From: Nitrososphaerota archaeon
GTDB taxonomy: Archaea; Thermoproteota; Nitrososphaeria; Nitrososphaerales; Nitrosopumilaceae
Direction of reading: 5' to 3'
Length of the DNA stretch: 51,839 nucleotides
Assembly (NCBI GenBank): GCA_028867275.1
Contig: JAGWGU010000006.1
Span: forward strand, 1-51,839
Both the position numbers and the translations under genes were made by a program. Shown here in pieces: positions 40,847 to 43,630 of this stretch. Position 1 is the stretch's first letter, and every line of letters begins with the position of its first letter. The notes under the pieces were generated by a model. It did not search any database. It was given only the letters and a program-made list of their open reading frames with translations, and was not told the DNA's origin.

Positions 40847-43630
40847 TTATTTTGTCGTACTGTTTGACTCTATACTAATTTTTGACACTCGTGCAGCATC
40901 AGCATCAACTGGCTGGTTATTGTCAGGATTTGTCTTCAATGCTGCTATTTTATCTACAACATCTTGGCCAGATATGACCTCACCAAATAGTGTATACTGA
41001 TCATTTAACCATGGAGCATCACCAAGTGTGATAAAGAATTGGGAACTTCCACTGTTGACATCAGAGCCTCGTGCCATGCCCACCATGTATTTTGTAAAAT
41101 TCATGCTGGTGCTAAATTCTGGCGGAATTGTATATCCTGCATCTCCAAGACCCCAAGTGCTTCTATCACCTTTTATTGTATTGGGATCACCGCCCTGTAT
41201 TACAAATCCTGGCATTATCCTATGAAATATGGTTCCATCATAGAAACCAGAGTTGGCAAGTTTAACAAAGTTTGATGCTGTCTTTGGTGCAATATCACCA
41301 AATAATCTGAATTTTATTTCTCCAAACTTTGTATTGATCACTGCAATGTTTCCACTGCTACTTGTAGTGGTTGTTGGTTTTACTGTTGTGCCTGATCTAT
41401 TTTCCTGAGTTATGCCATAAGCAGGTGTGGATATAGTTTGAGATTTGTAATCTGGATTGACCTGATAAATCAATACCCCAGAAAATACACCAGAGTCAGT
41501 CCTATTCAAGCTTGGAGACGAGTACACTAGGCGTAGTGGCCCAGCGCCATTTGCTGGATACTTTACAGTCTTAGAGTAAATTGCAGTATAACCCGTATTA
41601 TAGGTAGGAGATTCGTTGTGAGTATTTGGATCATAGTATGTTATAGGAGTAAACGGAAACATTTGTCCAAGCAAGGTATTTTGCCAGAAATAGTTAGTCG
41701 GTGTAAATGAGTCATCTTGCAAGAATTTGGAGGAATCAAGGCCGCCTATTTTCATGAACCACTGTTTCTTACTTTCATCTCCTCCGCCCCCAAGTATGTA
41801 GAGATCCTGACCGTTTGAAACAAACTTTTGGCCTACAACATATACTAGAACATAATTTGCACCTGCGTGGTTTAACATCTTCCATGCTTCATCAGGTGAA
41901 CTCAAAAACATTCTTGCAATGTTTGCTATGGTGCTTGTATCAAGAGTAGCATTGTCAGCAAGTGTCTTTCTTTCTCCCAGAGTCTGTACCCAGTATCCAT
42001 AGTCCCACCATGATGCAACTACAGAATTCTTTGGAGTGTTATTTTTAAGCCAGTTCAGAGCATCTGGCCAGTCATTAGTGGAGATGGCAAAGTTTGATCC
42101 CCCATTAAGAATTGTAGGTGGAGATTTTGTTACCGAGATCCAGTTGGCATTCACAGGATACAAAGCTGGAACAAGCAGTAATGCCACGATCACAGCAACA
42201 AATGCTATCTTTGGAATTCTCCCAAGTAAATAGAGTGTTTTCTTTGTTGGAACTTCCTTCCTTGAGCTGGTTCCTTTCTTGGGTTCGGTAAATTGGACCT
42301 GTTTGTTTTCTCGTTTCAGAATATCTGATACAAGAATGGCAAGACCTATTGATGAGAGTACTATTACAGAAGTTGCTGTGAGCAACTCTAATCTAGAGAA
42401 GGTTGAACCTGCATATGCTCCAATGATTCCTATTATCAAGGCAAATACAACCATCTCATTTTTAAGAGAGAATCTTGACGCATTTTGGTCTCCATTCTTT
42501 TTTCTAAACACGAGCCAAATTCCAAGGCCTGCAAACAGCATAAGCACAGAGAAATAGCTAAAGTTTTGTGCAAGTGTTGGAGTGGCATGTTCTGCAACTG
42601 AATCAACCAAAGGATCTTCAGAAGTCAAAAATGGGTTTATCGCATTAAGATAACGAAAGCTTACTGAATGGAAAGCACTAGCAGATAAGAGTACAACACC
42701 AATTACGACTAGTGCAGCCAAAATCAACAAGCTGTTGCGTAGGCGATACTGTTCTTTGCTATACTTTTGAATGAAAATTATTATGACAAGCAGTATTGCA
42801 GGTCCGATCATTACCAATCCCCTTACACCAAATACAAAAGATGGACCCGGTCTTGCAAATAACCCTCCAGATATTATCATGGTTACGGCTACAAACAATG
42901 GAACTGCCCAGAGCAGGAAATTGTGATCCTTTCGTATAAAAGGCAGAGCAATAAAGAACAAGCCCAGTGGAAGAAGGAAGAACTCTATTCCACCCCAAGA
43001 TGCAAAACCTATAGCAAGAAAGAATCCTCCTCCTACCAATTTTGATATGGCAATTTTCTTGTTTTCTGATTTTAATCCACTGAGAAACAGGTATACTCCT
43101 AACAATCCATAAAACAGACCAAGGGGTTCAGACTTGAACCATCCAATTGTTCCCCTGACTATGATGGGTGGAGATATAGCAAAGAAAAGTGAGGCAAAGA
43201 GTCCTGCACTAGTACCTCCCAAAACACGCACTAGAGCAAATATGATTATTGTAGTAAGAGAACCAAAAACTACTGGAAAGATTATAGTAAAATCATAGAG
43301 ACTTGTTCCGCCACCAAATATTTTGTACAGAATTGCATCCGTTACATGCAATGGAACTTGAGAGGTGGAAAAAATATCTCGCCCAGTTGGATACCAACTC
43401 ATGTCATCGTGCCAATGAACATATGCATTTAGTCCATTATCGAGCAAGTATTGTGTTGCTCTATAATTGAAGAATGGATCAAATTCGTTTAGTTGGAAAC
43501 CATAATCAGCAGCCTGAGATCTGACCATTGCAGAAACGGAAAATGAAATTGCAAGAATTCCAATTACAAGCAGATGTCTCAGATGAAAATCAAATCTTCG
43601 TACCGTGAATAGTTTAGCGTCTTGTATCAA
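40847..43630 (-). CDS. Oligosaccharyltransferase Stt3/AglB fused to a cyclophilin domain
   Basis: 927 aa. The first 490 residues carry about 11-13 membrane helices, with the catalytic Asp in NEFDPFFNYRATQYL and DDMSWYPTGRD. The extracellular domain has WWDYGYWVQTLGERKTLADN near residue 541, the sequon-recognition motif. After a Thr/Ser linker, residues about 757-920 are a cyclophilin: VINTKFGEIKFRLF, TIFHRIMPGFVIQGGD (catalytic Arg, Phe, Gln), SSQFFITLGDAPWLNDQYTLFGEV. The key PPIase residues are kept. The fusion would place a proline isomerase at the site of N-glycan transfer outside the membrane. The fusion is continuous in one frame with no stop. Confidence 0.95.
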   Translation of the reverse strand: MIQDAKLFTVRRFDFHLRHLLVIGILAISFSVSAMVRSQAADYGFQLNEFDPFFNYRATQYLLDNGLNAYVHWHDDMSWYPTGRDIFSTSQVPLHVTDAILYKIFGGGTSLYDFTIIFPVVFGSLTTIIIFALVRVLGGTSAGLFASLFFAISPPIIVRGTIGWFKSEPLGLFYGLLGVYLFLSGLKSENKKIAISKLVGGGFFLAIGFASWGGIEFFLLPLGLFFIALPFIRKDHNFLLWAVPLFVAVTMIISGGLFARPGPSFVFGVRGLVMIGPAILLVIIIFIQKYSKEQYRLRNSLLILAALVVIGVVLLSASAFHSVSFRYLNAINPFLTSEDPLVDSVAEHATPTLAQNFSYFSVLMLFAGLGIWLVFRKKNGDQNASRFSLKNEMVVFALIIGIIGAYAGSTFSRLELLTATSVIVLSSIGLAILVSDILKRENKQVQFTEPKKGTSSRKEVPTKKTLYLLGRIPKIAFVAVIVALLLVPALYPVNANWISVTKSPPTILNGGSNFAISTNDWPDALNWLKNNTPKNSVVASWWDYGYWVQTLGERKTLADNATLDTSTIANIARMFLSSPDEAWKMLNHAGANYVLVYVVGQKFVSNGQDLYILGGGGDESKKQWFMKIGGLDSSKFLQDDSFTPTNYFWQNTLLGQMFPFTPITYYDPNTHNESPTYNTGYTAIYSKTVKYPANGAGPLRLVYSSPSLNRTDSGVFSGVLIYQVNPDYKSQTISTPAYGITQENRSGTTVKPTTTTSSSGNIAVINTKFGEIKFRLFGDIAPKTASNFVKLANSGFYDGTIFHRIMPGFVIQGGDPNTIKGDRSTWGLGDAGYTIPPEFSTSMNFTKYMVGMARGSDVNSGSSQFFITLGDAPWLNDQYTLFGEVISGQDVVDKIAALKTNPDNNQPVDADAARVSKISIESNSTTK

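Follow-up and report, generated by a model that had tools for sequence, protein, structure and literature searches.

Whether a reading frame that runs from an Stt3/AglB oligosaccharyltransferase straight into a cyclophilin is a genuine archaeal protein, and what a prolyl isomerase would do in such a place, is the question raised by one locus in a 51,839-nucleotide stretch of DNA (here called the window) from an archaeon of the family Nitrosopumilaceae. The source genome is a 1.70 Mb draft (G000) in 73 contigs, 96% complete, and among named genomes the nearest to it are metagenome-assembled genomes of Candidatus Nitrosotalea, whose STT3 parts share 87-88% identity with that of the window. Whether N-glycosylation is coupled to folding at the translocon is being actively investigated, for the most part in the eukaryotic ER, whose large multi-subunit complexes make the coupling difficult to test. 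A covalent fusion of a catalytic oligosaccharyltransferase and a prolyl isomerase is a simple natural two-part system for this coupling. The ammonia-oxidising archaea (AOA) are moreover central to the nitrogen cycle, and their S-layer is thought to concentrate ammonium.

Architecture of the fusion gene

The open-frame listing gave 927 uninterrupted codons at positions 40847-43630 of the window on the minus strand, with the following features:

40847..43630, minus strand: AglB/STT3-cyclophilin fusion gene, 927 aa, TTG start (single open frame; Pfam STT3, STT3-PglB_core and Pro_isomerase)
41426..43630, minus strand: STT3/AglB part, approximately residues 1-735, a multi-pass membrane region followed by a C-terminal globular domain (Pfam, hydropathy, AlphaFold2, Foldseek, ends of unfused homologues)
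41996..42010, minus strand: WWDYG motif, residues 541-545 (sequence; conserved in 59/59 fused homologues)
41360..41428, minus strand: linker core, residues 735-757, predicted to be disordered and rich in S/T/N/P (pLDDT; linker-length variation among homologues)
40868..41347, minus strand: cyclophilin domain, residues 762-921 (PF00160, mapping to human CypA with conservation, fold, dN/dS)

The Pfam profile STT3 (PF02516) matched residues 42-375 (E 3e-26; 93.3 bits against a cut-off of 24.5) and STT3-PglB_core (PF21436) about residues 535-596 (26 bits; cut-off 23). Pro_isomerase (PF00160) matched residues 764-908 (E 2e-45; 155 bits; cut-off 21.7), covering profile positions 3-149 of 159 and so nearly its full length. 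The TIGR04154 profile of archaeosortase A-associated STT3 gave the fusion 125.5 bits, under its curated cut-off of 450. By sequence search of solved structures, residues 20-648 matched human STT3A and approximately residues 755-922 matched spliceosomal and bacterial cyclophilins. Since the aligned STT3 of unfused relatives stops at the equivalent of residue 724-730, the STT3/AglB part is complete. The original prediction, that one uninterrupted frame joins a complete Stt3/AglB to a C-terminal cyclophilin, was in this way confirmed by the open frame, the Pfam matches and the ends of the unfused proteins. The WWDYG at residues 541-545 is the motif of sequon recognition. The same STT3 membrane domain, WWDYG and C-terminal globular domain are found in AglB, eukaryotic STT3 and bacterial PglB, whereas the fusion adds a tethered cyclophilin past the C-terminal domain, before which its unfused relatives stop.

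An AlphaFold2 model of the fusion, built with 88 alignment rows, had a mean pLDDT of 89 and a pTM of 0.77. Most ten-residue blocks in both domains scored above 90, and residues 734-756, which make up the linker, scored below 50. The model of a homologue from G119 also had two domains in this arrangement (pTM 0.75); its linker was shorter and without secondary structure but of higher confidence than that of the window's protein. In Foldseek, the STT3 side matched human STT3A and yeast STT3 best, followed by Archaeoglobus AglB and PglB, and a separate match of the model to cyclophilins gave TM-scores mostly of 0.8-0.9 when normalised by the single-domain targets. The C-terminal domain is extracytoplasmic in solved STT3 homologues, and hydropathy revealed no hydrophobic segment after residue 500 of the fusion; on these grounds the cyclophilin would lie outside the cell membrane. 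The expectation that a prolyl isomerase sits beside N-glycosylation gains support from this predicted topology.

The genes around the fusion encode aIF2 alpha, aIF2 gamma, ribosomal protein S6e, a beta-lactamase-fold hydrolase and CobO. None of them bears on glycosylation, and an explanation from operon or neighbour logic was set aside.

An assembly or frameshift artefact joining two adjacent genes would produce a single frame of the same appearance, and one draft contig does carry the STT3 and cyclophilin parts in separate frames (L069). The single frame nevertheless recurs in many independent assemblies and different families, and it is intact in single-contig genomes from the window's genus (G035, G006), from its family (G061, G101) and from other families (G043, G092, G119). 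The linker also evolves as protein linkers do, ranging from 15 to 101 residues among the fused homologues and being rich in Ser, Thr, Asn and Pro. Separate genes in close relatives, which would have pointed to such a join, were looked for, and in these relatives too both domains share one frame. An assembly join is ruled out by these many assemblies and families, and we give an artefact of either kind practically no chance. The split copy of the single draft (L069:4998-7756) is a probable frameshift just past the start of the cyclophilin, either a sequencing error or an early loss.

Self-glycosylation of the linker was considered as well, given that the linkers of fused proteins contained 108 sequons against 70 in shuffles in a first, non-thinned comparison. 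Among 27 representatives with less than 75% identity the excess was gone (36 sequons against 27.7 expected, with 10 rows above and 10 below expectation), and the idea was rejected.

Distribution, origin and loss in ammonia-oxidising archaea

In the window's genus, which is the Nitrosotalea lineage, both domains were found in one frame in 30 of the 37 genomes; three others contained cut or fragmented pieces of the fusion, and four incomplete ones had no STT3 match. Among the loci with names, the fusion was present in Nitrosotalea, Nitrosotenuis, Nitrososphaera, Nitrosocosmicus and unnamed Nitrososphaeraceae, and absent from Nitrosopumilus, Nitrosarchaeum, Cenarchaeum and Nitrosopelagicus, where most STT3 proteins stop at the position corresponding to residue 728. 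Fused proteins also occurred in family f3 and in one genus of family f2. Nitrosopolaris and Nitrososphaera sp. AFS have an STT3 with a long S/T/P-rich tail and no cyclophilin, and because this tail remains they are taken to have lost the domain.

The fusion was confined to the AOA in our survey, which sampled the window's own phylum. Within the order, an STT3 without cyclophilin was found in twelve families (f4, f6, f7, f9-f17), whose tested members had no amoA; none of the 12 amoA-negative genomes of the order contained the fusion. All fused genomes tested carried amoA except the window's own draft, which had no amoA match. As amoA is present in 32 of the 37 genomes of the genus, this absence is probably a draft gap. 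No cyclophilin was found in 25 genomes from other orders of the class. In a sample of 299 genomes of the phylum, the matches listed (E to approximately 1e-19) included no cyclophilin from beyond the order in a frame of more than 646 residues. The fusion had at first seemed unfamiliar from other lineages and possibly unique; it turns out to be widespread in ammonia-oxidising archaea.

No description of an STT3-cyclophilin fusion was found in the open-access literature, to which the search was directed. The multidomain cyclophilins mentioned in a survey of archaeal PPIases all carry their isomerase N-terminally (PMC8530231). The fusion is a confirmed and conserved architecture that had apparently gone undescribed.

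The STT3 phylogenetic tree placed all AOA proteins in one group with a support of 100 and a long stem. This group had three main parts, f2 together with f3, f8 (Nitrososphaeraceae) and f1. Fused proteins occupied the early branches of each part, and the unfused ones were nested within f1 and f8. Because the early branches of all three main lineages are fused, the fusion was probably ancestral to the AOA, with one gain before their radiation and several later losses, among them those in Nitrosopumilus with its marine relatives and in Nitrosopolaris. The cyclophilin tree (171 columns) was weakly resolved and did not group all the fused domains. A constrained tree with the fused cyclophilins together fitted no worse than the unconstrained one (AU p 0.54), the tested group also taking in the Nitrosocosmicus exported cyclophilins and one exported copy from G139 (L152). 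A domain this short and weakly resolved neither proves nor rejects a single origin, and the cyclophilin tree was discarded as evidence on this point.

Several genomes departed from the general pattern. In family f2, the five near-complete genomes of genus g2 (G037, G053, G066, G075, G091) had neither an STT3 nor a cyclophilin match, an apparent loss of the whole N-glycosylation transferase; amoA was found in all three g2 genomes tested, and the sister genus (G083) is fused. Three contigs titled as Chitinophagaceae, an unnamed bacterium and SAR202 (L077, L104, L117) hold AOA-type STT3 genes and are probably mis-binned archaeal contigs. In G120, the frame that holds one cyclophilin is unusually long at 923 aa (G120:C134:1988-2452), and STT3 is encoded separately.

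The cyclophilin domain and its free exported counterparts

Conservation of the fused cyclophilin was counted over 59 fused proteins, with positions given in human CypA numbering. R55, F60, Q63, Q111, F113 and L122 were conserved in 57-59 of the 59 proteins and A101 was invariant; the corresponding PPIase site positions in the window's protein are R804, F809, Q812, A853, Q864, F866 and L875. A check of nine site residues found R55, F60, Q63, A101, F113 and L122 present, M61 replaced by Val, H126 replaced by a nearly invariant Tyr, and W121 variable (Phe or Trp, sometimes Ala, Asn or His). The claim that the catalytic residues had been kept was mostly right, with M61, H126 and W121 as the exceptions. 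From the conserved positions, the domain is expected to be active as a PPIase. With Val at M61, and with Ala, Asn or His at W121 in some relatives, the domain might have little activity, or might serve for binding alone. Compared with cyclophilin-type PPIases (PF00160; PpiA/PpiB, PPIL1-like), the fused domain has the same complete fold and most of the active-site residues, but is attached to a multi-pass membrane enzyme and carries Tyr at H126, Val at M61 and a variable W121.

The dN/dS of the cyclophilin part was 0.03-0.20, similar to that of the STT3 part, with synonymous sites saturated in several pairs. In pairs with a synonymous divergence below 1 for the given part, the values were 0.08-0.20 for the cyclophilin and 0.04-0.11 for STT3. 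Purifying selection acts on both domains.

Exported cyclophilins are also encoded as free proteins. Nitrosopumilus-type and Nitrosotenuis-like genomes encode an exported cyclophilin plus PsbP-like protein in open frames of approximately 505-594 aa. Members of this family (L141-L148, L156; e.g. L141:2146-3687; approximately 505-580 aa) begin with a signal-peptide-like stretch, which is followed by the cyclophilin and the PsbP-like domain, and have a hydrophobic segment at the C-terminus. By count from the survey table, a long cyclophilin frame of this kind was present in 34 of 35 unfused f1 genomes and in none of eight g1 and g25 genomes. In the g1 and g25 genomes examined, a Pfam-based search found only the fused copy and cytosolic-type cyclophilins, and within the genus of the window every cyclophilin other than the fused copy is of cytosolic type. 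Nitrosocosmicus-like genomes displayed a third arrangement of an exported cyclophilin. The proposal that the fusion is the only exported cyclophilin in all AOA proved false, as Nitrosotenuis-like genomes contain both forms and genus g55 has none.

The fused and free domains have exchanged sequence. In G043, the fused copy (L024:5930-8887, plus strand) and the free exported cyclophilin (L044:1149-2552, plus strand) are identical at 406 of 407 bases, in the domain only; the equivalent two copies in G085 share 81% identity. Because the near-identity is confined to the cyclophilin domain, this is a recent gene conversion between the two paralogues, and it suggests that fused and free domains are functionally interchangeable.

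A probable folding factor beside the glycosylating enzyme

The reading that we favour, and consider rather probable, is that AglB anchors a tethered cyclophilin folding factor for exported chains, with a single ancestral origin and several losses. AglB would glycosylate exported proteins, such as S-layer proteins, on their leaving the translocon, and the cyclophilin prolyl isomerase tethered at its extracytoplasmic C-terminus would then isomerise prolyl bonds in the same chains, or chaperone them, between membrane and S-layer. The cyclophilin would be a largely separable module and AglB its anchor and locator, and glycosyl transfer would not need the cyclophilin. This presupposes PPIase activity and substrates shared between the two parts, both of which we infer. 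The fused domain resembles a transferable PPIase module more than a component on which AglB depends, because relatives have lost it, often having free exported cyclophilins instead, and because of the gene conversion in G043. The architecture suggests that sugar attachment and folding occur at one station outside the cell membrane. Against the favoured reading, members of g55 have lost the domain without having any cyclophilin, which means that its function is not essential everywhere. In this genus of family f8 (G148, G157), AglB is kept with no cyclophilin found anywhere in the genomes, and the AglB of G157 has a linker-like tail.

Alternatively, the cyclophilin might serve glycosylation itself by isomerising prolines near sequons or keeping chains unfolded, and AglB would need it for some substrates. 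The physical coupling has been kept for long in many lineages, as this would predict. The terrestrial Ns. viennensis has one aglB, its AglB has been detected by proteomics, and it N-glycosylates its S-layer protein and multicopper oxidases at N-X-S/T; in the marine Np. piranensis AglB was less abundant and N-glycosylation was not detected (PMC12153357, in which neither a cyclophilin nor an isomerase is mentioned). Nitrosopumilus is unfused, in line with such a role, yet many other factors could account for the contrast between two species. A strict requirement for the cyclophilin in glycosyl transfer is opposed by the fact that STT3/AglB works without one in derived AOA and in every other lineage, by the unconstrained length of the linker and by a gene conversion that points to a generic function. 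The earlier suggestion that the cyclophilin exposes sequons found no support for the same reasons, since the enzymes of sister lineages are without the domain. We regard a service to glycosylation as unlikely.

A prolyl-isomerase-fold protein is also found beside STT3 at the export site in the human OST-A translocon (FKBP11; PDB 9n9j; PMC12804085). FKBP11 differs from the fused domain in having the FKBP fold, in being a separate protein and in that its catalytic site is buried by CCDC134, for which it is viewed as an adaptor (PMC12804085). This precedent keeps alive the idea that the fused cyclophilin is a non-catalytic binding domain bringing AglB to the translocon or to S-layer proteins, and the M61 and W121 substitutions in some members fit it. 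The near invariance of R55, F60, Q63, F113 and the Tyr at 126 in 59 proteins, however, goes beyond what a pure scaffold needs, and a solely adapting role is quite improbable.

A more ambitious form of the folding-factor reading would be that in the AOA a "glycosylate and fold" station consisting of one polypeptide evolved at the translocon, with the cyclophilin working on the chain under modification by AglB and each activity depending on the other, and that the marine loss accompanied a change in the making or glycosylation of the S-layer. We hold this to be speculative and, on balance, unlikely to be right. The repeated losses and the exchange between fused and free cyclophilins are natural controls for the proposed coupling.

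The proposed placing of a prolyl isomerase between membrane and S-layer has a counterpart in another ammonia-oxidising archaeon. NmPin of Nitrosopumilus maritimus is a membrane-associated parvulin proposed to fold S-layer proteins; in contrast to the fusion it belongs to a different PPIase family and is a free protein, bound to lipid by a lysine patch (PMC4922055). The window's genome also encodes a small parvulin-family protein, perhaps NmPin-like, and the fused cyclophilin may therefore not be the sole prolyl isomerase outside the membrane.
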